Shown: positions 12,840-48,708 of the stretch, in pieces
Numbering within the stretch: position 1 is the first letter of the stretch
How the letters are laid out: each line of letters begins with the position of its first letter
Assembly (NCBI GenBank): GCA_002727195.1
Contig: PBWH01000003.1
Location: 135,007-199,006 of the forward strand
DNA: 64,000 bases
From: Gemmatimonadota bacterium
Lineage (GTDB): Bacteria; Latescibacterota; UBA2968
Reading direction: 5' to 3'
The notes under the pieces: generated by a model
What the model was told of the DNA's origin: nothing
Database searches by the model: none
Seen by the model: only the letters and a program-made list of their open reading frames with translations
Made by a program: the position numbers and the translations under genes

Positions 12840-13767
12840 ATGGAGTTTACGGACTATTACGAAACCCTCGGCGTGAGCCGAACGGCTTCAGAGGAAGACA
12901 TCCAGAAGGCCTACCGGAAGCTGGCCCGTCAGTTCCATCCCGATGTGAACAAGTCGGATGGTGCCGAGGATCGGTTCAAGGAGGTCGGAGAAGCCTACGA
13001 GGTCCTGAAGGATCCTGAGAAGCGCGCCAAATACGATGAGTATGGTGCTGCCTGGAAGCAGATGGAACAGAACAGCGGCGGCTTCCCCGGGTTTGACTTC
13101 AACGGAGTTGGTCCGGCTGGCTTCGACAGTTTCTTCGACATCCTGGAGCATATGTTCGGCCAGGGGGGCAACGGAAAGTTCACCGGCGGATTTCGGGCAT
13201 ACGGAGGCAGTCCGTTCACGTCGGGAAGCCGAGTCAATATCCCGATACGCGGTGCCGACTATGAAGCCTCGATTCGCCTGATGCTTGAAGAAGCTGCTGC
13301 AGGCGGCACTCGGATGCTGACGATTCCTACACCTGATGGTCAAGAACGACGGCTAAGGGTAAACATCCCGAGAGGCGTGACCCCCGGGCAGCGTATCCGG
13401 CTGGCGGGACAGGGCGGCGCTGGGGATAGGGGATCCGGAGATCTCTACCTGGTCGCTGACATCGTGCCGCACCCACAGTACGTGCTCAGTGGCCACGATC
13501 TCCACACGCAGCTTCGAGTTCCGGCCTGGATGGCGGCACTCGGCGGGAAGACCGAGCTGAAAACGCTGACCGGAAAGGTCAAGGTGTCTGTTGCCAAGGG
13601 GACGGAGTCGGGTCGCCAGATCAGGCTGAAGGGCCAGGGCTACCCGAAGGGCGAGGGAGCGGGCGACCTGTATGCGGAAATCCTGATCGAGGTGCCCGAT
13701 CGCTTGTCTGCCGAACAGCGAGACGCTTTCGAAACACTCAAATCAATCGACCTGGAGACCGTGCACA

Positions 13768-13781
<14 letters not shown>
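12840..13781 (+). CDS. cbpA: CbpA-type DnaJ co-chaperone
   Basis: A 313-residue J-domain protein that would stimulate DnaK. ATG 12840 is preferred over the in-frame GTG 12828 because GGGGAAG lies directly before it and [14 protein letters not shown] is the canonical J-domain start. The J domain (1-70) contains the essential HPD in [21 protein letters not shown] Gly/Phe-rich linker follows (about 80-135). Two C-terminal beta domains carry [20 protein letters not shown] and [16 protein letters not shown]. There is no cysteine-rich zinc finger, so it is the CbpA class and not DnaJ proper. No dnaK is in the window. Its end overlaps clpB by 14 bases, implying coupled translation. Confidence 0.93.
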
Positions 13782-16392
<2,611 letters not shown>

Positions 16393-29555: not shown

Positions 29556-30314
29556 ATGCCTGAACGTAAGAGACTACTGATAACCGGTGCCGCAGGCAAG
29601 GTCGGCGGTGCACTCCGCAAGCATCTTGCCTATCGCTACGACACGCGTCTTCTGCTCAATCGCACCATTCCCGACGACATTAAACCGGAGGAGGAGATGG
29701 TCATCGGCGACATCTCCAACTTCGAGGCCATGCTAGAAGCGACGCAGGGCGTCGACATCGTCGCTCACTGCGCCATCTTCAACCGTACACGTGGGATGAC
29801 TCGCGCGGCTCTGGCGCAACTCACTTTCGATGTTGACATGAAGAGCTGCTACAATATTTACGAGGCCTGTCGAATCAATGGAGTCGAAACCGTCGTCTTC
29901 GCCAGCACGAACCACGTCACAGGGCTGAACGAGAAGGATGGGCTGATCTCTCGACCCGAGTTGCCCGTACGGCCGGACGGGATCTATGGAGCCGGCAAAG
30001 CGTTCGCCGAAGCCCTTGGACGATACTACGCCGACACCCACGGCCTGCGGGTCTTCTGCCTGAGAATCGCGAACTTCAACGGTCTCGACGAGCCGGGACG
30101 TCGGTATGAAGCGGGGCAGGCCCGGTGGCTCAGCCCGCGTGACTGCGCGCAACTCACCTGGCGCTGTATCGAGAATGAGAAACTGAAGTTTGGGATCTAC
30201 TACGGTGTGTCCCAGGGAGGCGAGGAGAAGTGGGACCTCACGAATGCAGTAGAAGAGCTGGGGTATGCGCCAGAGGACAATGGAGCGCTACCAGAGTGGC
30301 AGGCCAAGTACTGA
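29556..30314 (+). CDS. NAD-dependent epimerase/dehydratase, uronate-dehydrogenase-like
   Basis: A 252-residue extended short-chain dehydrogenase. It starts at ATG 29556. The nucleotide-binding motif is LLITGAAGKVGGALRKHL. The catalytic pair lies in GIYGAGKAFAEALGRYY (YxxxK), with Ser/Thr in VFASTNHVTG. The small size (about 250) and the overall pattern resemble uronate dehydrogenases, which oxidise galacturonate or glucuronate to the lactone. That would suit the SMP-30 lactonase and UxaA proteins further along, but the assignment is inference. UDP-sugar epimerases are usually longer (about 320). Confidence 0.8.
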   Translation: MPERKRLLITGAAGKVGGALRKHLAYRYDTRLLLNRTIPDDIKPEEEMVIGDISNFEAMLEATQGVDIVAHCAIFNRTRGMTRAALAQLTFDVDMKSCYNIYEACRINGVETVVFASTNHVTGLNEKDGLISRPELPVRPDGIYGAGKAFAEALGRYYADTHGLRVFCLRIANFNGLDEPGRRYEAGQARWLSPRDCAQLTWRCIENEKLKFGIYYGVSQGGEEKWDLTNAVEELGYAPEDNGALPEWQAKY

Positions 30315-30354
30315 ATCGCACTTGGATCTTGTAGGGTTAGGAGTGTTGACGGTA

Positions 30355-31599
30355 TTGGAAAGCTTACACGGGGCGAATGGACCTGAGTTCCGGCAGGCCG
30401 TTGATGGTGATGCCGATGCGATTCTTCAGATCATGTCGGGGGCGTTTGCACGTGAGCCGGGAACCCAGAAGTACGAGCGGGACAGGAACCGACTGAGGGA
30501 GGAGATCGATACCCACTGGGTCTTATCGTGGCGTGGCGAAGTCGTGGGTGCCCTGCATACTCAGGTAGACGAGATTCAGGTAGGACGCACTACCATAACG
30601 AAAGTGGACGTGGGGGAGGTTTGTGTCTACCCTGCCTGTCAGAGCGAAGGGCTGGGCACGATTTTGATGCAGAGGTTGGTGGATCAGCTGAAAGCGGATG
30701 GACATACCCTTTCGAGACTGGGCGGATATCGACGGTTCTACGAGCGATTCGGGTGGGCACCCTTTCCGCGTGGGTCTGTAGAGTTCCCGCTCCAAGGCCT
30801 GACATCGCGTAGTGGGTTCACCGATCCAGTGACCTTTCTCGATCGGGTTGACGAGGACGTCCACATCAGGCCATACGATGGTAAGCGGGACGCCGAAGCG
30901 TGTGAGCGACTCTACAGGGCTTTCAACGAGGGAAGGACGGGAGCCCGACCGACGAGATCGTTCGGGGCAGGAACAGGGAATCCCTGGCAGGTGGTCCACG
31001 AACAGGAGGGGGAGGTGAGGGCATATGTGTTCGCCAATCAAAACGATCCGCCTTTTGGCCGCTTGTCTTCGGCGGTATCCATCTCCGACGCTGCCTGCGA
31101 TCCTGCCTGGACGGCGCCGCTAGGAGAGAGTCTACGGTATCTGTTGCGACAGGCGGCCGTTTCTGGCGCTGAATCGGTCAGAGCTCGCCTTCCACTGGAC
31201 CCAACTCTCTACGATCTCTATCGTGACGCGAGTTGCGGGTTCATCCCATCCCTGTGGCAGTCCTCCGAAGGTGGGAACATGCTTCAAATTCTAAGCCTGA
31301 GAAGGCTTCTCGAGGAGATCGCGCCGGAGTTGGCCGCCCGTGCGAAGACTGCAGGGCTTCCTGGCACTGATGTCACCCTTCGGGTTCAGGACGAAACGGT
31401 GGGCATCGTGTGGAATGGCAAGTCCGTGGTCGTTGGGGACGCCTCTATGGATCCCGTCGAGTTGGGGCAAGACGGTTTGATGAAATTGATACTGGGACTG
31501 CTGCCTGCTGAGCAGGTGGTCTCTCGCGACCGCACGGATGCGAGTATATTGCGAACACTGTTTCCTGTTCAGCCCACCGCGACTGGCGTTTGGGGCTGA
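30355..31599 (+). CDS. Eis-like GNAT acetyltransferase with SCP2-like C-terminus
   Basis: A protein of about 414 residues built like Eis: a GNAT domain (residues 10-150), a second GNAT-like domain and a C-terminal sterol-carrier-like domain. The GNAT acetyl-CoA region is VGEVCVYPACQSEGLGTILM. RLGGYRRFYERFGWAPFPRG is the usual Eis-type follow-on. The start is uncertain. TTG 30355 lies 11 bases after AGGAG and just before the first conserved residues, while a longer frame from 30265 would overlap the epimerase gene by 50 bases. Family members acetylate aminoglycosides or peptides, and most environmental members have no known substrate. Confidence 0.78.
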   Translation: MESLHGANGPEFRQAVDGDADAILQIMSGAFAREPGTQKYERDRNRLREEIDTHWVLSWRGEVVGALHTQVDEIQVGRTTITKVDVGEVCVYPACQSEGLGTILMQRLVDQLKADGHTLSRLGGYRRFYERFGWAPFPRGSVEFPLQGLTSRSGFTDPVTFLDRVDEDVHIRPYDGKRDAEACERLYRAFNEGRTGARPTRSFGAGTGNPWQVVHEQEGEVRAYVFANQNDPPFGRLSSAVSISDAACDPAWTAPLGESLRYLLRQAAVSGAESVRARLPLDPTLYDLYRDASCGFIPSLWQSSEGGNMLQILSLRRLLEEIAPELAARAKTAGLPGTDVTLRVQDETVGIVWNGKSVVVGDASMDPVELGQDGLMKLILGLLPAEQVVSRDRTDASILRTLFPVQPTATGVWG

Positions 31600-31656: not shown

Positions 31657-33825
31657 GTGTATCCAGACAAAGAAGCCGGACTGCTGAAGTCGTTTTCGCC
31701 AACAGAACCCATCTTCGCTGTCGACTCTGACTACATCAGTCGAGCGCGTTCCTCGTGCGCCACGGAGGGGACGCCTTGTTACCTGGCACTGAAGGCACTG
31801 GTCAAGGAGGCCGATGCTGCGCTGGAGCAGGAACCGCTGACTATTGTGAACAAGCCCATCCTGCCGTCCAGCGGGGACAAACACGACTACATGAGCGTGG
31901 GCCCATACTGGTGGCCGGACCCCGATAAAGCGGACGGTCTGCCATACATCCGGAAAGACGGAGAGCGCAATCCTGAGGTCCAAAAGACCGATCGACCGCT
32001 TCTGGCGACAATGATCTCATCGGTACGCGCCCTTGGCTTCGGCTGCGGGTTCACGCAACGAGAGGATTATGCCTCGCATGCCGCACTGTTGCTACGTACC
32101 TGGTTCCTGGATCACAAGACCCGAATGAACCCAAATTTCCTGTTTGGTCAGGCGATTCCCGGGATTTGTGAGGGGCGCGGGATCGGGCTCATCGAGACGG
32201 CGGCACTCGCACGGGACGTGCTTCCTGCGGTCAGCTTCCTGACCGATTCGGACAGCTGGACAGCTGAGGACATGGCGGGCCTTCAGGCCTGGTTCCACGC
32301 GTTCCTGGAGTGGATGTTGACTCACCCTTACGGCGTCGATGAAGCGCGTCACGGAAACAACCACTCGACTGCCTACGACGTTCAGGTTGCGACGTATGCA
32401 CTGTTCATCGGTCAGCCCGATATCGCCCGGAGCGTCCTTGAGGGGGTGGGCGAGCGGCGGATCGCGACGCAGATCGAGCCGGATGGTCAGCAGCCAAAGG
32501 AGCTCGCCCGTACGAAAGCGCTCGGGTATGCGAGCATGAACCTGAGCCTGCTGCTCGAACTCTCCGAGATTGCTCGTCAGTGGGGGATCGACTTGATCAA
32601 CTACGAGTCGGCGGATGGGAGGTCCATCAAGTGTGCCATCGATTGGCTGTTCCCGTTTTGGTCTGGAGAACAGGAGTGGACGTTGCCTCAAATACACCCA
32701 TTCGAGGGGGGGCGCGCGTTCGTGTGTTCACGAATAGCGGCCTATCACTACCTGAACATGGATTACGAGCCGACGAAAGTTGTAATGCCGGAGATGTCTG
32801 ATGCGAAGAAAGCCGGACAACTGTTCAACCTGATCATGCCTCCCTTCGAGGGAAGCCGGCTACACGGCCTGCCGATCGGGAAGGATGTGGTGTTCCACGA
32901 CCCCCAACCGTTGGTCCATCCGGACTTCACGAACGGAGACACCACGCTCAGCCAGACAGAGGTTGAGTTCTTCAAGGAGAACGGATACTTGGTGAAGCGT
33001 GGTTTGCTGGATGAGAAGGAGACCTTCGAGCAAGTCGTTGACCACGTTTGGAACAACGTACCTCGGGACCTCGTGAAACGAGAGGATCCAGAAACCTGGA
33101 TCGACGCGCCGCAAGGAGATTGGACGTCTGAGGACGCGGATCGTCTCGGGCCGTTCAGACGCGGATCGTGGAAGATGCGTGGACGTACGGTGGGGACCGA
33201 ATCGTTCTTCGTGGATGGGATCGCCAACCATCCGCGAATGCGTGAGACGGTCAGAAACTTTATCGGGAATCCGGTGAGGCAGGCGAGCAGAGTGCGTGGA
33301 GTCTACTGCATCTTCCCGAAGTCACCGGATCGCGAAGCGCGATTAGGCCCACACGGTGACCACACGGGCGCACAGTTGTCGGCGATGGTGTTCGTCAGTA
33401 CGGTGCCGCCACACTGCGGAGGGTTCACGATCTGGCCAGGTTCACATCACATGAGCCACGTCTATCATCGAACCATCTACGGTCCACTCGATGACGACCA
33501 GGCGGACGATTATGTCCGGGCTCGTGACGAGATCCTAGACTCGGTCACGCCGGTGCAGTTTCACGGGACAGCCGGGGATGTCGTCTTCTGGCACCCGCGC
33601 CTTGTGCACGGTCCCGGTATCAACTACTCTGCCGAATACGACAAGCCGATCATCCGCTACATCGTCCCGTGCGAATACCAGCGGGACGGCAAGACTTACT
33701 ACTTCAACATGTCACACGGACCCGCACCCAACCGTCAATGGTGGGTCGACACCAAAAATTTCCGCGAAGACGTGCCCGCCACCGATGACAACATCTGGGA
33801 CGAGTGGGCGTTCGAAACCGCGTAA
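31657..33825 (+). CDS. Alginate lyase-phytanoyl-CoA dioxygenase fusion
   Basis: One uninterrupted 722-residue frame from GTG 31657 joins two domains not normally fused. Residues about 70-400 match the alginate lyase (Alginate_lyase, PL5-like) alpha/alpha toroid: KHDYMSVGPYWWPDPDKADG, the catalytic-type GNNHSTAYDVQVATYALF with Asn235-His236, and KELARTKALGYASMNL with Arg285 and Tyr291. Residues about 430-700 are a PhyH-type Fe(II)/2-oxoglutarate dioxygenase: VEFFKENGYLVKRGLL, iron ligands His567 and Asp569 in GPHGDHTGA, the distal His651 in LVHGPGINYS, and Arg667 for 2-oxoglutarate. There is no signal peptide, so both activities would be cytoplasmic. A linker of about 30 residues joins the domains. 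No frameshift or repeat lies at the junction. Confidence 0.8.
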   Translation: MYPDKEAGLLKSFSPTEPIFAVDSDYISRARSSCATEGTPCYLALKALVKEADAALEQEPLTIVNKPILPSSGDKHDYMSVGPYWWPDPDKADGLPYIRKDGERNPEVQKTDRPLLATMISSVRALGFGCGFTQREDYASHAALLLRTWFLDHKTRMNPNFLFGQAIPGICEGRGIGLIETAALARDVLPAVSFLTDSDSWTAEDMAGLQAWFHAFLEWMLTHPYGVDEARHGNNHSTAYDVQVATYALFIGQPDIARSVLEGVGERRIATQIEPDGQQPKELARTKALGYASMNLSLLLELSEIARQWGIDLINYESADGRSIKCAIDWLFPFWSGEQEWTLPQIHPFEGGRAFVCSRIAAYHYLNMDYEPTKVVMPEMSDAKKAGQLFNLIMPPFEGSRLHGLPIGKDVVFHDPQPLVHPDFTNGDTTLSQTEVEFFKENGYLVKRGLLDEKETFEQVVDHVWNNVPRDLVKREDPETWIDAPQGDWTSEDADRLGPFRRGSWKMRGRTVGTESFFVDGIANHPRMRETVRNFIGNPVRQASRVRGVYCIFPKSPDREARLGPHGDHTGAQLSAMVFVSTVPPHCGGFTIWPGSHHMSHVYHRTIYGPLDDDQADDYVRARDEILDSVTPVQFHGTAGDVVFWHPRLVHGPGINYSAEYDKPIIRYIVPCEYQRDGKTYYFNMSHGPAPNRQWWVDTKNFREDVPATDDNIWDEWAFETA

Positions 33826-34718: not shown

Positions 34719-35429
34719 CTATAGCAGTGAAAGTTGCTCCGGGTCAGTAGAAGGTGTGATGGTAACTGGCTCGATACAGTTGGCCACGTCGTTCCGCGGT
34801 GAGTTCACCGTGTTAGCCACGGGGTGGGCAGTCATCTCGTCTGCAGGATACGGTACGAGGAGACCGTTCAGGATTTCAGCCTCAGTCGTGTCGTGGTCCA
34901 GCCACAGATCGTAGGCTTGCTCAGGCAAGATCACGGGCATCCGGTTGTGGATGTCCGCAATCAGCTCGTTCGGCTCGGTCGTGATGATCGTGCACGTCTT
35001 GAGATGCTCTCCGTCTTCCTGCTTCCACGTGTCGTATAGGCCGGCGAACGCGAAAGGACGTCCTCCCGTCAGCGTGATATACATCGGCGTCTTCGTCTTG
35101 CCGTCACCCGATTGCTTCCACTCGTAGAAACCGTCAGCGATGATCAGGCAGCGCTTGTTGCGGTAGGCGTCGCGGAAGGCGGGTTTGCTCGTAAGCGTCT
35201 CACCCCGAGCGTTGATCATGCGGTTCCCGATCTTCGGGTCTTTTGCCCAGAACGGGACAAGCCCCCACTTTGCTGAGCCAACGGTGCGCTCGCCATCGTT
35301 CGCCACGTGCAGGATCTGCAGGGAGGGGGCGATGTTGTAGTGTGCTTCGACTTCGTCCGGGAAGACGAAGCCCTTGAACGCCAGTTGCAGGTCAGCGATT
35401 GGCGTGTGCAGACTGAACCGACCGCACAT
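34719..35429 (-). CDS. SRAP-domain protein, YedK/HMCES-like
   Basis: A 236-residue protein that forms a protective thiazolidine link to abasic sites in single-stranded DNA. It starts MCGRFSLHTP, so Cys2 is the catalytic nucleophile after Met removal. Other conserved elements are YNIAPS (Asn), MINARGETLTSKPAFRDAY, IIADGFYEWK (Glu) and MPVIL preceded by HNR (His). The length is usual for the family. Its ATG shares one base with the TGA of the SMP-30 gene upstream, so a DNA-repair factor is translated with sugar-lactone genes. Confidence 0.95.
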   Translation of the reverse strand: MCGRFSLHTPIADLQLAFKGFVFPDEVEAHYNIAPSLQILHVANDGERTVGSAKWGLVPFWAKDPKIGNRMINARGETLTSKPAFRDAYRNKRCLIIADGFYEWKQSGDGKTKTPMYITLTGGRPFAFAGLYDTWKQEDGEHLKTCTIITTEPNELIADIHNRMPVILPEQAYDLWLDHDTTEAEILNGLLVPYPADEMTAHPVANTVNSPRNDVANCIEPVTITPSTDPEQLSLL

Positions 35430-36286
35430 CAGAGCCCGACACGAGAGTAGTGTTCCTCGATACCCCGGATGCCGAGGTTGATCCGATACAGCGCACCGGC
35501 ACCTTCACCGTCGGTCTCCTTGAGGTGGCCGCCCGCCGTCGTGACATACATGTCGGTGTAGTCCTCGCCGCCGAATGTGACGCAGGAGACTTTCCTGGCG
35601 GGGAACTCGACCGTCCGTTGGACGGTTCCATCGGGTGCGTATCGCGTCAGGCAGCTCCGATCCCATCCAGCGGACCATACATAACCGTGGGCATCGACGG
35701 TCATCCCGTCAGGCACGCCGTCCTGGTCGCTGCTGTCTGCAAACACGCGCTGGTTCGTGATCTCGCCCGTTGCCAGATCGTAGTCGAACAGGTAGATCTT
35801 CTTTGCCCGTGAATCCGTGTAATACATCGACTTCATGTCGAGGGTAAAGCCCATCCCGTTCGAGCAGCCGATCTCGTCGAGGACCTCGGTGATGGAACCG
35901 TCGATGTCCAATCGGTATAGCCGGCCGAGATGATCAGGGCTGGGCATCGTTCCACAGAAGACCCGACCTTTCGGGTCGGCCATTACGTCGTTGAAGCGGG
36001 ATTCCGTCTCGTGGGGAAGTGATTCAATCTGCGTTTGGAGGTATCCGTTGTCCCACAGCCGAACGGCGCCTTTCGACATGAACAGAAGAAGTTTGCCGTC
36101 TGCCTGGATCGTGAAGCCGCCGATCTGGTCCCCCTCGTAGCACATCTCGTGGTTTTTCGACGCGGGGTCGTATCGAAACAGCCGGCCCTGAGGGATGTCC
36201 ACCCAGTAGACACGCTTCTCCTGCGGATGCCACAGGGGTCCTTCTCCGGTCTGACACGCATAGTCCGCGATCAGTTCTGGTGCCAT
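35429..36286 (-). CDS. SMP-30/gluconolactonase-family lactonase
   Basis: A 285-residue six-bladed beta-propeller that hydrolyses sugar lactones such as gluconolactone. ATG 36286 is preferred to the upstream ATG because AGGA lies eight bases before it. Metal-site and fold markers include TGEGPLWHPQEKRVYWVDI (Glu), RFNDVMADPKGRVFCGTM (Asn), GCSNGMGFTLDMKSMYYTDS (Asn) and DGVPDGMTVDAHGYVW (Asp). First gene of the operon with the SRAP and amidohydrolase genes. Together with a uronate dehydrogenase it would convert aldonolactones to acids. Confidence 0.92.
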   Translation of the reverse strand: MAPELIADYACQTGEGPLWHPQEKRVYWVDIPQGRLFRYDPASKNHEMCYEGDQIGGFTIQADGKLLLFMSKGAVRLWDNGYLQTQIESLPHETESRFNDVMADPKGRVFCGTMPSPDHLGRLYRLDIDGSITEVLDEIGCSNGMGFTLDMKSMYYTDSRAKKIYLFDYDLATGEITNQRVFADSSDQDGVPDGMTVDAHGYVWSAGWDRSCLTRYAPDGTVQRTVEFPARKVSCVTFGGEDYTDMYVTTAGGHLKETDGEGAGALYRINLGIRGIEEHYSRVGL

Positions 36287-36539
36287 GGTGTTATCCTTTT
36301 TCATTTTTCTGAGATCTTCCTGTGACGTGACTGTGACAGCTCGGACCCCGGCGCATTGTCATCATGGATTCCCTGTCCTCCCTGGCTTGGCGCATGAGGA
36401 CCAATCCTCAATTCTCAATCCTTTAGCTCTGATGTCAAGCCGTCCCCACACGGGCCTCGAGCTTGCGGCTGCGAGGCAATCCGATTACATTGCCGCCCTC
36501 GAAAATGCACCACACTTGGCAACGGATGGAGTTCCTGTT
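36287..36539. other. Divergent intergenic region between SMP-30 operon and oxidoreductase
   Basis: 253 bases between divergent genes. It contains AT-rich patches near 36296-36315 but no promoter or operator that I can support. A frame open to the right across it lacks a ribosome site and is not taken as coding. Confidence 0.4.
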
Positions 36540-40080: not shown

Positions 40081-42765
40081 TTACATACTGACACCCAGAA
40101 GGCCTCTGGTAAACTGGAAGTCGGTATTGCCGAGGCCGACGGTTCTGGGCGTATAGCTTCCAGATGCGGTTTCCGCGACCCGGGCGACCAGGAGATCGAG
40201 ACCGTTCGCTTCCACATCTACGTCGATGTCATCGGCAAAGCGTGAACTCAGAGTGGCGTCCGTCACCTGAAGTGTTGGGACCAACGGGTGGCCCTGAAGG
40301 GGATGATCACCCGGCAGGGCTAGAATCATGTCGGTACCGGCGGCGGCAAGACCGGTCAGCGTCTCAACCCAATGGGAGGTCGGATTCTCCACTGCGTGCA
40401 GCCCTTGGGTTTCCGGCCGGCCCCCATGGGGCAGAGTCGCTCGACCGTCGAATTCGCCAACAGTCGTGTTCACGTAAACCGGATCCTGCCACAAACCGTC
40501 CGTCGCGGGCACGATCACCGTCCCGCCGTGGCTGCACAGGCGGTTGACGAGTGCGCCGATCACAGTTACGACCTCGCCTGATACAGCCCCTTCGCTGGCG
40601 ATCCCGATCCTCAGGTCGGAGAGTGGCCTTGGCTGGCGTTTACTCGGCGCTGCACTGGCTACTTTGTCGGCGAACCATTCGCGCGCCCTGTCGAGCACGT
40701 TGTCGATGCCACCGTCCAGCTGAATGCTTGCCCAGCCGAATCGGCCGCGGTCGATCCCGTATTCGTCGAGGTGGTGACGGATGAAGTCGTTGTGCGTTTT
40801 CTCACAGCCGTGCTCCATGATGAACGCAAATCGAACTGATGGGTGCGTCAGGTAGTTCAGCATCGATCTCGTGTAGATCCGTTCCGTCTCTTCGCCTGCC
40901 ACGCCACACCCTTCCGTGTGTACAAGTGCCGTATACCGGCTGAGGGTGTCCGGGACTCCGACTCGGAACGCGTTCAGCTGTTCTGCGCACTTCTGGGCAA
41001 TCTGTCCAGAACAGAGACTGGTGGGCAAGATTAATCCGACAGCGTCGCTGCTGGCTTCTCCTTCCGGCGTTGTCCAACCGCTGAAGGATTGCGCGATCGG
41101 GCCACCCGGATCGGCGATGGCCAACGGACTGCCGGTCGGGGGGAGGGATGACTCGATCGTCGCCAGGTTTGTCGTGTCCGTCTGCCGCCAGTTCCGCCAC
41201 AGAGAGACCTGAGCGTGTTTGGCGAGCTCTCCTTTGCTCCGTTCTCCAGAAGCGACTCCTAGCGTCTGATCGTAGAAGGTGGCTCCCACCTCATCCATCG
41301 ACTGGCCGTCTAGGTAGGCTCCCGCATTGACGTCCATCTCTCCGGAGAGGAGCTCGTATCGGCCTGTCGTCGTGATGATCTTGAGCGTCGGCACGAACGG
41401 GAAGTTGGTGATCGAGCCGTTGCCGGTGACGAAGAAGATCACGTTACAACCCGAGGCGACCTGGCCGGCGATGCTTTCGAGGTCGTTGCCCGGACTGTCC
41501 ATGAAGTAGTAGCCCGGCTCAACCATCGGCTCGCCATAGTCGATCACTGCGTCCAGCCGCACATCGGGGTGCCGCTTCATCGCCGCGCCGATGGACTTGA
41601 GCACGATGTTGTAAAGGCCACGGTATTTGTTCCCACCCGAGGGGTTCCCTTCTGCGGATGTGCCGTGCCACGCAGCGAGCTCTTTGTAGGCTTCCACTTT
41701 CGCGACAAACTTCCGGGCTGTTTCGAGATCCTTGGCGTTCTGGAGGACGTAGGCTTCCGCGCCGATCAGCTCGTCAGTTTCGGCTAGGTTGGCCGCGCCA
41801 CCGTTCCGGATTACCTCGCGAGCAACCCAGGAGGCGAGAGGATTCCCGGAAACGCCCGAGAAAGCGTCCGATCCTCCGCACTGGAGCGCGATCTTTAAGG
41901 CCGAAACCGGCTGATCCGTCCGAGGCGTTGCGCTGACAGAATCGATCCAGCCCTCTACGACCCGTGCGGCATCGTCGAGGTTGTTGTTCAGGTTGCCCTC
42001 GATCCTGAAGTAGGCGTGTGGGACATCACTGATCGGATAGTCGTTCTGGGCCAGATACGCCTTGAGGTCGTCGTTCGTAATCGACTCCGTTCCGTAGTCG
42101 ACGGCAATCACCGCGCCGACGTTCGGGTGGACACAGAATCCGGAAAGGGTGCGCAGCACATACTCGTAGTTGTTAGGCTTGTCGGATTCGCCCCCCTCCG
42201 TGTGCGCAACCGCGACGATTCCGTCCAGGTTGGGATGGGCATCAATCCGGTCAGCGAATCGCTTCTCGAGGAGCTTCACAAAGCTCCCCGTCCTCGAAGA
42301 CGTTCCCAGCAGGACGATCGTGTTTCGGGTTCCGATACCTCTCTTGCCTCGGTCATATCCACTGAAGGTGCGAGGGGTTTCGGTGGGGGCAACCTGCTCG
42401 CCGGGAACGAAGTTCTTCTCGCTCACATCGAACGGCACGATCCGGTCCTGGAAGTTCGGCGCTTCGGGGAGGTCGAAGGGAAGGTTTCGAAGGCTGAGGG
42501 CGTCGAGAATTCCGGTATTGCAGACATACTCGCCGGGCTCGATATCGCGCGTCGCCACACCGAAGGGGAGGTCCCACGAGAGCAGGAACTCGCCTTGTGG
42601 AATCCTGCGAAGCGCGAACCGGTGTCCCTCAAGCAGGCCGTGGGACAGAACGATCTCATCCTGGTCGACCTGAATGTTCGTTCCGGCATCCAGCGGCTGC
42701 GTTACGATCGCCACATTGTCACCAGGCATCGGGAGACGTGCAATCTCATCGAACAGAACAGGCAT
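40081..42765 (-). CDS. Tandem-duplicated UxaA-family altronate/galactarate dehydratase
   Basis: An 894-residue protein, against about 500 for UxaA. GGAG lies upstream of ATG 42765. Residues 1-90 are the SAF domain (SHGLLEGHRFALRRIP). The first UxaA core (about 150-530) has the C-terminal substrate motif LQCGGSDAFSG near 297 but has lost cysteines at the other sites: HTEGGE at 188 and DYGTES near 224. A second core (about 575-894) repeats both domains. There the cysteine motifs are intact (HTEGCG at 616, EHGCEKTHND near 652) but the CGGSD-type motif has become ASEGAVSG. The two halves look complementary and may work together as one active site or as a pseudodimer. The family dehydrates altronate or galactarate to keto-deoxy sugars. 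Confidence 0.8.
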   Translation of the reverse strand: MPVLFDEIARLPMPGDNVAIVTQPLDAGTNIQVDQDEIVLSHGLLEGHRFALRRIPQGEFLLSWDLPFGVATRDIEPGEYVCNTGILDALSLRNLPFDLPEAPNFQDRIVPFDVSEKNFVPGEQVAPTETPRTFSGYDRGKRGIGTRNTIVLLGTSSRTGSFVKLLEKRFADRIDAHPNLDGIVAVAHTEGGESDKPNNYEYVLRTLSGFCVHPNVGAVIAVDYGTESITNDDLKAYLAQNDYPISDVPHAYFRIEGNLNNNLDDAARVVEGWIDSVSATPRTDQPVSALKIALQCGGSDAFSGVSGNPLASWVAREVIRNGGAANLAETDELIGAEAYVLQNAKDLETARKFVAKVEAYKELAAWHGTSAEGNPSGGNKYRGLYNIVLKSIGAAMKRHPDVRLDAVIDYGEPMVEPGYYFMDSPGNDLESIAGQVASGCNVIFFVTGNGSITNFPFVPTLKIITTTGRYELLSGEMDVNAGAYLDGQSMDEVGATFYDQTLGVASGERSKGELAKHAQVSLWRNWRQTDTTNLATIESSLPPTGSPLAIADPGGPIAQSFSGWTTPEGEASSDAVGLILPTSLCSGQIAQKCAEQLNAFRVGVPDTLSRYTALVHTEGCGVAGEETERIYTRSMLNYLTHPSVRFAFIMEHGCEKTHNDFIRHHLDEYGIDRGRFGWASIQLDGGIDNVLDRAREWFADKVASAAPSKRQPRPLSDLRIGIASEGAVSGEVVTVIGALVNRLCSHGGTVIVPATDGLWQDPVYVNTTVGEFDGRATLPHGGRPETQGLHAVENPTSHWVETLTGLAAAGTDMILALPGDHPLQGHPLVPTLQVTDATLSSRFADDIDVDVEANGLDLLVARVAETASGSYTPRTVGLGNTDFQFTRGLLGVSM

Positions 42766-45312: not shown

Positions 45313-46121
45313 GCGTGTTGCCGGGGTCTGCTGCCAGTGTGGATGAGCGAGAGGATGCCCACATTCCTGTTCACATTCACGACATGACCGTCGCCTATGA
45401 CCGTAAGCCGGTGTTGTGGGATGTGGATCTGGCTGTACCCGAAGGGAAGTTGGTGGGAATCGTCGGACCGAACGGAGCAGGCAAGTCGACGTTGATCAAG
45501 GCGGTGATGGACCTCGTGCCGAAGGCGTCCGGCTGGGTACGCATCTACGGACAGCCCTACGCGGCCACCCGACAACAGATCGGGTATGTTCCACAGCGGG
45601 AATCCGTGGACTGGGACTTTCCCGTCAGCGCATTCGAGGTGGTTCTCATGGGCCGGTATGGCCACGTGGGTTGGATCCGTCGCCCCCGGAAGGCGGATCG
45701 TGACGCCGCTGAAGAGGCGCTGAGAAAGGTTGACATGGAGGCCTACCGTGACCGCCAGATCAGCCAGCTCTCCGGGGGACAACAGCAACGGATCTTCCTG
45801 GCGCGCGCCCTCGCGCAGGACGCACGGGTCTACCTCATGGATGAGCCCTTCGCCGGGGTAGACGCCGCGACCGAGCGGGCGATCATCGACATCCTGATGG
45901 AATTGCGTTCCCGGGGTAAGACGATGCTCGTTGTCCACCACGACCTGCAGACCGTCCGAGATTACTTCGACTGGCTTATTATGATCAACACGCGGGTTGT
46001 CGACTCTGGGCCGACAGATGAAGTGTTCACCGACGAGAATCTCCAGAAGACCTACGGGGGACGACTAACCGTGTTGTCGCAGGCTGCTGAAGCGGTCGCG
46101 AGCGGTAAGGTGAAGGCATGA
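45309..46121 (+). CDS. Metal ABC transporter ATP-binding protein
   Basis: A 270-residue ATPase. ATG 45309 overlaps the preceding TGA (ATGA). Walker A GPNGAGKST, signature LSGGQQQRIFLARAL and Walker B VYLMDEPFAGVD are intact, with His in LVVHHDL. It resembles MntB/ZnuC/TroB. It overlaps the first permease gene by four bases. Confidence 0.96.
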   Translation: MSVLPGSAASVDEREDAHIPVHIHDMTVAYDRKPVLWDVDLAVPEGKLVGIVGPNGAGKSTLIKAVMDLVPKASGWVRIYGQPYAATRQQIGYVPQRESVDWDFPVSAFEVVLMGRYGHVGWIRRPRKADRDAAEEALRKVDMEAYRDRQISQLSGGQQQRIFLARALAQDARVYLMDEPFAGVDAATERAIIDILMELRSRGKTMLVVHHDLQTVRDYFDWLIMINTRVVDSGPTDEVFTDENLQKTYGGRLTVLSQAAEAVASGKVKA

Positions 46122-47413
46122 GTGCCCCACTCTTCGACCTCAACTTTCAGCTGGTTCTGATCGGGAGCCTGCTGATTGGGGCCACGGGCGGGTTGCTCGG
46201 GACGTTTGCAGTATTGAGGAAGCGGAGCTTGCTCGGCGACACGTTGGCCCACGCAGCCCTTCCGGGCGTGGCAGTGGCCTTCCTGCTGACGGGATCCAAA
46301 GCGCTCCCCGTTTTGATCGCTGGTGCGACGTTCAGCGGTGTGCTCGGTGTTCTGATGATCCAGTTTGTTGTCAACCACACGCGGATCAAGGCCGACGCCG
46401 CCCTTGGCATCGTCCTCTCTGTCTTCTTCGGTGTGGGGATCGTCCTGCTGACCCATATACAGCAGTCGGGCGTCGGCAATCAGAGCGGGCTCGACAAGTT
46501 TCTGTTCGGCCAGGCCGCATCGATCGTCCGTTCCGACGTTCAGGTCATGCTGGTGCTGTCCCTCCTGGTGCTCGTTACCGTGGCGGCGTTTTACAAAGAA
46601 TTCAAAGCACTGATCTTCGACCCCGATTATTTCTCATCTATCGGCTACAACGCCCGGGGCGTTGACCTGCTGCTGATGGGGCTGATCGTCCTGACCGTCA
46701 TGGTAGGGCTGCAGGCAGTGGGGGTGATCCTTATCGCGGCTTTGCTGATCACGCCAGCAGTGGCCGCCCGGTTCTGGACCGATGATCTGGGAGCGATGGT
46801 GTGGATCGCCACAGCACTTGGTGCGATCTCCGGCGCGACCGGGACCTGGATCAGTACGCTTGCACCCAAAATCCCGACAGGTCCAGTGATGGTTCTTGTG
46901 GCGACTGGCGGATTCATTGTTTCCGCGATCTTTGCGCCCAGCCGGGGAGTTCTTGCGCGTCTAAAACGCCTCCGCGACAACAGACTTCGTGAATCGCGCC
47001 ACCATTTCCTTCGGGCTTTCGCGGAGTTGGCAGAAGCCACGGGGCGACAGAGCGAACTGACGATCGCGGAAGTGTCCGGTCATCTCCAGGAATCGGAGCG
47101 GACGACAGCGAAGACGGCATCTCGAATGGTGCGCGGTGGTTGGCTCGAGCGATGTGGTACGGGCGTCTGCTTGACGAATCAGGGCCAGGTCGATGCAGAA
47201 TTCGTGCTCAAGTCTCATCGGCTATGGGAACACTACCTGATCTATCGCTCGAACCTCAAGTTGGACCATGTCGATCGGCCGGCCGACGATGTCGAGCACA
47301 TCCTGACGCCGGAGATTGTCGCCGCGCTTGAGGACGCGCTTCGAGAGGAAGTGGTGGACATCGCGACCCCCGAAAGCGTTCACCCGACAACGAGTATGGG
47401 GGAGACGTCGTGA
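46118..47413 (+). CDS. Metal ABC permease with DtxR-like cytoplasmic domain (1)
   Basis: A 431-residue protein. Residues 1-280 are an ABC-3 family permease with about eight or nine membrane helices (LVLIGSLLIGATGGLLGTFA, SLLGDTLAHAALPGVAVAFL, VGLQAVGVILIAALLITPAV). Residues 285-431 are a soluble domain resembling the winged helix plus dimerisation region of DtxR/MntR: LTIAEVSGHLQESERTTAKT, GWLERCGTGVCLTNQGQ, LKSHRLWEHYLI and RPADDVEHILTPEIVAAL. Such a tail could sense metal or hold the regulator. It could also regulate transport directly, by inference. Ordinary permeases of this class end near residue 280. Confidence 0.88.
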   Translation: MSAPLFDLNFQLVLIGSLLIGATGGLLGTFAVLRKRSLLGDTLAHAALPGVAVAFLLTGSKALPVLIAGATFSGVLGVLMIQFVVNHTRIKADAALGIVLSVFFGVGIVLLTHIQQSGVGNQSGLDKFLFGQAASIVRSDVQVMLVLSLLVLVTVAAFYKEFKALIFDPDYFSSIGYNARGVDLLLMGLIVLTVMVGLQAVGVILIAALLITPAVAARFWTDDLGAMVWIATALGAISGATGTWISTLAPKIPTGPVMVLVATGGFIVSAIFAPSRGVLARLKRLRDNRLRESRHHFLRAFAELAEATGRQSELTIAEVSGHLQESERTTAKTASRMVRGGWLERCGTGVCLTNQGQVDAEFVLKSHRLWEHYLIYRSNLKLDHVDRPADDVEHILTPEIVAALEDALREEVVDIATPESVHPTTSMGETS

Positions 47414-48708
47414 TCACACCAGGTGAAGCCTGGATCCTGCTGACGGGCGCGCTGGCGACGGTATCCTGTGCGTTGCTCGGTACGTTCCTCGTGCTGCGCA
47501 AGATGTCGCTCCTCGGAGATGCGCTGAGTCATGCCGTACTGCCCGGGATCGTGATCGCGTTCATTCTATCCGGCAGCAGAGACGTCGTCCCGATGTTTGC
47601 GGGAGCCGCAGTCTTCGGTATTATCGCCACGGTTTTGATCGATGCGTTCCACCGACGTTGGCGAGTCCAGGAAGATGCCGCCATCGGAATCGTGTTTACA
47701 GCACTCTTCGCTTTGGGTGTTGTACTGGTTACAGCTTACACGGGTCACATCGACCTGGATCAGGAGTGCGTTCTCTACGGCGAGATTGCTTACGCTCCGT
47801 TGGATATCTGGACCTTGAACGGCAATGATATGGGCCCGAGGCCGGCCTGGATCCTGGGGACGGCCTTCATCCTCACGGTCGCCTTTGTCGGCCTGTTCTA
47901 CAAGGAACTGCAGATCTCTTCGTTCGACCCGGCGATGGCCCTTTCGGTCGGGATCAACGCAACGATCATGCACTACGCGCTGATGACGATGGTATCGATC
48001 ACCACGGTGGCTGCCTTCGAGTCGGTCGGAGCAATCCTGGTGGTCGCGATGTTTATCGTGCCCGGGGCCGCCGCCTACCTCTGGAGCAACCGGCTCAAGG
48101 TTATCCTTTGGCTCTCAGCCATTTTCTCCGTGCTGTCGGCGGTCGGTGGCTACGTCCTCGCTTCGGTCTGGAACAGTTCTATCGCAGGTGCCATGGTCGC
48201 AGCGGTCGGGATGATCTTTTTCCTGTCTGTGCTGGCTTCCCCGTCCCAGGGACTGCTGGGCAAGGCGATCGTCCGTGCTCGGCTGTCGGTGCGGATCGCC
48301 CAGGATCACCTGCTGCTGGGCTTGATCCGTCAGTCCGAACGGGATTCTTTCGAAGGCGTTCTATGCCAGGAGATTCCCCGGTTGGTCGGGGCAGGTCCCT
48401 GGGTCTCCCGGGCGGCGACACGGCGACTGACGAGCGGTGGACTGATCCGCGATGAAGGCGATCGCCTCGTCCTGACGGCGGAGGGAGAACGGAATGCCAC
48501 CCGCCTTCTCCGAAGCCACCGTCTGTGGGAGAGCTACCTGAGCAATCTCGGACTGCCCCATGATCACACACACGTGCCGGCGGACTTGCTGGAGCACTTC
48601 ATCGACGAAGGACTTCGAGAAAGAATCGATCAGGAACTCGGCGGTTCGGGTGTCGATCCGCAAGGGAAACCTATCCCGCAAGAGCGCGCTGACGGGGAGG
48701 CCGGTTGA
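47410..48708 (+). CDS. Metal ABC permease with DtxR-like cytoplasmic domain (2)
   Basis: A 432-residue second permease. GTG 47410 overlaps the previous TGA. The membrane part (1-285) has the same ABC-3 signature (LGTFLVLRKMSLLGDALSHA, AFESVGAILVVAMFIVPGAA). The C-terminal 145 residues again resemble DtxR winged-helix and dimerisation segments (VSRAATRRLTSGGLIRDEGD, LLRSHRLWESYLSNLGL, HVPADLLEHFIDEGLRERID). The two tails are diverged from each other, so the fusion is old and kept in both. Confidence 0.88.
   Translation: MITPGEAWILLTGALATVSCALLGTFLVLRKMSLLGDALSHAVLPGIVIAFILSGSRDVVPMFAGAAVFGIIATVLIDAFHRRWRVQEDAAIGIVFTALFALGVVLVTAYTGHIDLDQECVLYGEIAYAPLDIWTLNGNDMGPRPAWILGTAFILTVAFVGLFYKELQISSFDPAMALSVGINATIMHYALMTMVSITTVAAFESVGAILVVAMFIVPGAAAYLWSNRLKVILWLSAIFSVLSAVGGYVLASVWNSSIAGAMVAAVGMIFFLSVLASPSQGLLGKAIVRARLSVRIAQDHLLLGLIRQSERDSFEGVLCQEIPRLVGAGPWVSRAATRRLTSGGLIRDEGDRLVLTAEGERNATRLLRSHRLWESYLSNLGLPHDHTHVPADLLEHFIDEGLRERIDQELGGSGVDPQGKPIPQERADGEAG

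Follow-up and report, generated by a model that had tools for sequence, protein, structure and literature searches.

Polysaccharide lyases of family PL38, which include BoPL38 (8bdq), CUL-I, TpPL38A, Aly38A and RiPL38, have been reported to act on alginate, glucuronan, hyaluronan and chondroitin (HA/CS) (PMC13027841), and one PL38 enzyme has been tested on GAGs (PMC11790493). In BoPL38, Y298 is the base for syn elimination and H243 is the base for anti elimination (PMC13169297). The structure of a single-domain 'alginate lyase', BACOVA_01668 (3nfv/3nnb), has also been solved, and no publication on its function was found in the literature searched. The PhyH family (PF05721) includes PHYH (2a1x), EctD, SnoK, SnoN, PHYHD1 and FJS, which share an HxD...H...R facial-triad and 2-oxoglutarate signature; the PDB title of SnoN calls it an epimerase, and the substrate of both SnoK and SnoN is a nogalamycin sugar. 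Bacterial FJS and human PHYHD1 carry out O-demethylation of 2'-O-methyl ribose (PMC12709175). A high number of PhyH genes has been described in Poribacteria, a sponge-associated uncultured lineage, and the section describing this abundance reports no lyase fusion (PMC3909097). The literature searched, which covered few subscription journals, yielded no paper on the fusion of a lyase with PhyH and none that deals with PhyH together with sulfatases in symbionts of sponges.

Both kinds of domain were found on a single reading frame in the window (the 64-kb stretch of DNA that was analysed, from a Latescibacterota genome), with the following features:

31657..33825, + strand: PL38-like lyase / PhyH dioxygenase fusion gene, 722 aa, GTG start; frame open in 12 assemblies of one family
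31843..32679, + strand: PF05426 lyase domain, residues 63-341; closest structures 3nfv and BoPL38 8bdq
32359..32364, + strand: N235-H236, equivalent to BoPL38 N242/H243 by alignment; roles as given in PMC13169297 and PDB titles
32527..32529, + strand: Y291, equivalent to BoPL38 Y298 (syn base/acid); BoPL38 H297 is G290 in the fusion
32812..32952, + strand: inter-domain linker of about 45 residues (386-432); low model confidence; in genus g5 it carries 13 inserted residues
32971..33633, + strand: PF05721 PhyH Fe(II)/2-oxoglutarate dioxygenase domain, residues 439-659
33352..33360, + strand: HxD metal motif H566-G567-D568
33607..33609, + strand: distal metal ligand H651
33655..33657, + strand: 2-oxoglutarate-binding R667

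Pfam matched Alginate_lyase (PF05426) to residues 63-341 (E=4.9e-81, 272.7 bits against a cut-off of 22.2) and PhyH (PF05721) to residues 439-659 (E=7.2e-12, 46.5 bits against a cut-off of 22), which bears out the original prediction of a lyase and a PhyH domain on one frame; the two motifs that it had picked out, GNNHST and KELARTKALGY, are both present. The GTG start is sound, because an in-frame stop lies nine codons 5' of it and because most relatives use an ATG as start at this very residue (MYPD...), with only five open codons before it. The predicted absence of a signal peptide was likewise confirmed, in that no 10-residue stretch of the N-terminus exceeds a mean hydrophobicity of 0.79; the N-termini of stand-alone Latescibacterota lyases also lack a signal-peptide-like hydrophobic run, whereas the chains of several homologues in other phyla begin with a hydrophobic, leader-like segment. 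The lack of a signal peptide supports a cytoplasmic location for the fusion protein, and the lyase would then act on imported oligosaccharides, as had been proposed.

The lyase half had been described as PL5-like, and this assignment did not hold. Its best PDB sequence matches were 3nfv (BACOVA_01668; 7e-89) and BoPL38 (8bdq; 4e-63), whereas the AlgL/PL5 NCBIfam model, with a cut-off of 366 bits, gave only 15.7 and the profile match to the PL5 enzyme A1-III reached only 1e-6. An AF2 model of the lyase half, with a mostly confident core (blocks at pLDDT 75-98, some loops at 50-70), matched PL38 structures across the full PL38 fold in Foldseek (TMt 0.81-0.84, 31-32% identity), and TMt values against 3nfv and BoPL38 were 0.81-0.86. 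By fold, 3nfv was 39% identical (E 1.7e-24) and is the closest solved structure, while PL5 structures showed 14-18% identity and a weak fold score. PL5 (AlgL, A1-III) belongs to the same fold group and has an Asn-His-Arg-Tyr set equivalent to that of the lyase half, but the two are far apart by identity and family model, and PL5 membership was rejected on the model score, the profile match and the fold comparison. Taken together, sequence and modelled fold place the lyase half closest to characterised PL38 members, and we refer to it as PL38-like.

The BoPL38 residues Y91, D108, Q173 and N242, which PDB titles name as mutated, and the catalytic H243 and Y298 correspond to Y84, D101, Q165, N235, H236 and Y291 in the fusion. 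Among the mapped active-site residues only H297 is changed, to Gly290, and 3nfv also has Gly before the Tyr; this position varies across homologues and was not treated as family-defining. The fusion therefore shares with PL38 enzymes the PF05426 domain, the fold and these equivalents, and differs from them in its attached PhyH domain, its probable cytoplasmic location and the Gly in place of H297. Because PL38 activity spans several polymers, the substrate is not readable from the family, and alginate, the substrate first proposed, was dropped as the evident one in view of this multi-specificity (PMC13027841; PMC11790493) and of the sulfatase-rich sister loci, with PL4-like lyase and BNR_4 proteins, described below.

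In the PhyH half, H566, D568, H651 and R667 are invariant in the complete fusions; H651 and R667 had been correctly predicted, and the HxD pair, placed at 567/569, was off by one residue. A profile search of the PDB with this half returned SnoK, PHYH, SnoN and EctD as the nearest solved relatives, all of them distant (SnoK, the nearest, at only 26 bits); PHYHD1 was absent at E<=1, and on sequence the PhyH half does not appear closest to the PHYHD1/FJS 2'-O-methyl nucleoside demethylases. An AF2 model of the PhyH half had a pLDDT of 31, from an alignment of only eight closely related rows. The fusion's PhyH half thus carries the signature of its family, yet is distant from the solved members and joined to a lyase. 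The FJS/PHYHD1 demethylation is a precedent for it by analogy only, because family resemblance does not place the PhyH half in the PHYHD1/FJS subgroup.

The fusion was intact in 12 assemblies from four genera of one Latescibacterota family, with 68-76% of aligned residues identical to the query, and its carriers include a single-contig complete genome (G037, OX638329); a second, partial copy was present in G025. A stop codon at the junction, named in advance as the sign that would speak against the fusion, was looked for in related genomes, and the fusion was intact with no junction stop. No fusion was found in the other Latescibacterota families searched, nor in other taxa by a pattern-based, non-exhaustive scan of GTDB contigs. 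In the tree, the lyase halves of the fusions group together (100/100), separately from the stand-alone lyases of Latescibacterota and with a Bacteroides protein nearest to them (98/96), and from this monophyly we infer that the fusion arose once. A split-gene ancestor at the junction was not seen: the stand-alone homologues in the fusion's own genome (PhyH 55%, lyase 43%) are separate paralogues.

Across the fusions, the two halves are conserved to a similar degree, with G027/UBA6620 as the exception. Lyase identity is 74-96% among the complete fusions compared, G027 aside, and the mapped lyase residues are kept in the other 11 complete fusions and in one further partial copy. In G027/UBA6620 (L011/L044/L099; fusion at L044:8001-10043), a large deletion over the GPYWWPDPDK segment of the lyase half has removed Y84 and D101, and Q165R, N235H, R285H and Y291S are also present; the PhyH half is intact. 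Relative to other fusions, the G027 lyase half is 61-69% identical and the PhyH half 77-82%. This decay indicates that lyase activity is dispensable in the G027 lineage.

The following neighbours of the fusion were identified in the window:

29556..30314, + strand: uronate-dehydrogenase/Azf-type SDR; best PDB match uronate dehydrogenase (4.6e-27), NCBIfam Azf 158 bits, below the cut-off of 400
30265..31599, + strand: GNAT acetyltransferase (Acetyltransf_9), ending 57 bp before the fusion
35429..36304, - strand: SMP-30/gluconolactonase-type sugar lactonase
40081..42765, - strand: galactarate/altronate-dehydratase-like protein, with its domains matched twice

The SDR and GNAT reading frames overlap, and both genes lie upstream on the fusion's strand. 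The SDR, lactonase and dehydratase-like protein suggest sugar-acid catabolism; in sister genomes this set is not kept next to the fusion, and in the window no sulfatase was present among the 30 window genes scanned. The dehydratase-like protein (894 aa) is apparently a tandem fusion, and two adjacent ABC-3 metal-transporter permeases (46118-47413 and 47410-48708) each also contain an iron-dependent-repressor C-terminal domain. An Acetyltransf_9 GNAT gene adjoins the lyase in two families (window 30265-31599 and L113:3564-4673), perhaps by coincidence.

In genus g5, the fusion is clustered with sulfatases, a PL4-like rhamnogalacturonan-lyase-type protein and BNR_4 proteins, and an aldehyde dehydrogenase is also present in three loci; in L094, L097 and L100, the start of a sulfatase overlaps the fusion stop by 4 bp. 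Conserved proteins of 700-890 aa with no Pfam match also lie beside the fusion in this genus (L098:11121-13220, 13574-16249 and homologues). The G027 fusion is flanked by a sulfatase and another PhyH. The sulfatases, PL4-like lyase and BNR_4 proteins of these sister loci argue for a sulfated uronic-acid polymer. Stand-alone PL38-like genes in the phylum also form same-strand clusters with PhyH, arranged as PL-Ldh_2-PhyH (L108, L114), PL-PhyH-PhyH (L111) and PL-amidase-PhyH-PhyH (L112), where the Ldh_2 in L114 and the leading one of the two PhyH genes in L112 were assigned by BLAST cluster; the link between lyase and PhyH therefore does not rest on the fusion alone. No PhyH adjoins the lyase in L113 or L115, and scanning the flanks of PL38-like genes outside Latescibacterota with a clade-specific profile, a weak negative, revealed no PhyH relatives. 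At a density of approximately one PhyH per 40 kb, a single lyase-PhyH neighbour pair would be unremarkable; two independent arrangements together with the fusion are more than expected, on an informal expectation.

The complete genome G037 yielded at least 150 PhyH and at least 150 sulfatase matches, and several of its ORFs contain two PhyH domains. Gene coordinates in this genome were compared with a rotation null, and 29 of the 150 listed PhyH genes lay within 700 bp of a sulfatase, compared to 9.7 expected (maximum 22 in 300 rotations), which is approximately 3-fold above chance; the two genes were on the same strand in 26 of these 29 pairs. Poribacteria likewise have very many PhyH genes, and the text of the poribacterial paper does not mention sulfatases (PMC3909097).

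Altogether, we favour a model in which the fusion is a bifunctional enzyme of the cytoplasm whose substrate is an imported uronic-acid oligosaccharide, decorated and probably sulfated, and in which lyase cleavage is combined with oxidative removal of a blocking group; we consider the chances of this model to be about even. The PL38-type half would cleave a 1,4-linked uronate through beta-elimination by its catalytic residues Y291 and H236, and the PhyH half would hydroxylate the same oligosaccharide or its product using Fe(II), 2-oxoglutarate and O2. The likeliest outcome would be loss of the blocking group, most simply an O-methyl released as formaldehyde, and sulfatases and uronate catabolism would then finish the breakdown; the architecture, the catalytic residues, the location, the conservation and the linkage of PhyH genes to lyase and to sulfatase genes are what the analysis shows, whereas the substrate, the oxidised position and a direct hand-over between both sites are what we infer. 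The model draws on both active sites being kept, the conservation of the fusion, the sulfatase and lyase neighbours, the lyase-PhyH clusters, the PhyH-sulfatase co-location and the FJS/PHYHD1 precedent. However, it is weakened by the window itself, where the 30 genes include no sulfatase and the neighbours are general sugar-acid genes, by the PhyH half being nearest to SnoK/SnoN and PHYH, not PHYHD1, and by the G027 lineage keeping the fusion with a decayed lyase half. Some PhyH neighbours are also expected by chance, because each genome has more than 150 PhyH genes, and we know of no methylated substrate for these bacteria.

The original prediction had the PhyH half oxidise the unsaturated uronate released by the lyase, opening a new route for tailored uronates. 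Both activities lie on one chain, and the SDR, lactonase and dehydratase-like protein of the window would suit such a route, but their lack of conservation beside the fusion in sister genomes, and a PhyH half conserved in G027 despite the decayed lyase and hence independent of that lyase's product, make it unlikely. Oxidation of the unsaturated product is possible, and O-demethylation, which bacterial PhyH-family enzymes perform on ribose (PMC12709175), is at least as plausible. The G027 divergence, with mapped residues lost from the lyase half and a better conserved PhyH half, would instead fit a working PhyH enzyme whose lyase half mainly binds the uronate oligosaccharide; we hold this to be just as improbable, since the other 11 complete fusions and one partial copy keep the mapped lyase residues, with high lyase identity among the complete ones compared. 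It is more doubtful still that a chance join was fixed amid the more than 150 PhyH genes of each genome, with the halves working on unrelated substrates: the very large PhyH expansion and the different join (lyase-amidase) in a sister family would allow this, but the intact frame was retained across four genera, and stand-alone lyase and PhyH genes are also clustered on one strand in other arrangements. AtsK, a TauD-type alkylsulfatase, hydroxylates the carbon bearing a sulfate ester, and the 3-fold PhyH-sulfatase co-location could reflect similar oxidative desulfation by the PhyH half; such genomes already contain at least 150 ordinary sulfatases, and we know of no PhyH-family sulfatase, so that we regard this as very improbable. 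An assembly artefact joining two neighbouring genes, for which no supporting point was found, can be set aside with near certainty, as the same open frame and junction in 12 assemblies, including single-contig G037/OX638329, excludes a chance or assembly join.

Returning to the bifunctional model, the fusion, which often lies near sulfatases, suggests an undescribed oxygen-using step in the breakdown of decorated, probably sulfated, sugar-acid polymers. More broadly, and only tentatively, Latescibacterota might break down sulfated polysaccharides partly by an oxygen-dependent route: inside the cell, PhyH dioxygenases would free uronate oligosaccharides of blocking groups such as ethers. If true, the fusion would couple this stripping directly to beta-elimination, and the route would help to account for at least 150 PhyH alongside at least 150 sulfatases per genome. 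No explanation for the abundance of PhyH in sponge-associated uncultured bacteria, such as Poribacteria, was found in the literature searched; the fusion, the lyase-PhyH clusters and the co-location with sulfatases point to sulfated or methylated uronate oligosaccharides as a candidate PhyH substrate class. An Fe/2OG route of this kind, if right, would join the few known oxidative steps in algal and animal glycan breakdown.

Further rearranged copies were observed. G037 carries a second, internally deleted fusion copy (C1:4169736-4170608; L093:1237-2142) approximately 10 kb upstream of the intact one, in which residues 1-157 are joined to 587-721 and the HxD motif is gone. In a sister family (L109:432-2870 and L112:9239-11665), a lyase of this type is joined to an amidase (PF01425) in a fusion, and L112 has lyase and amidase side by side.
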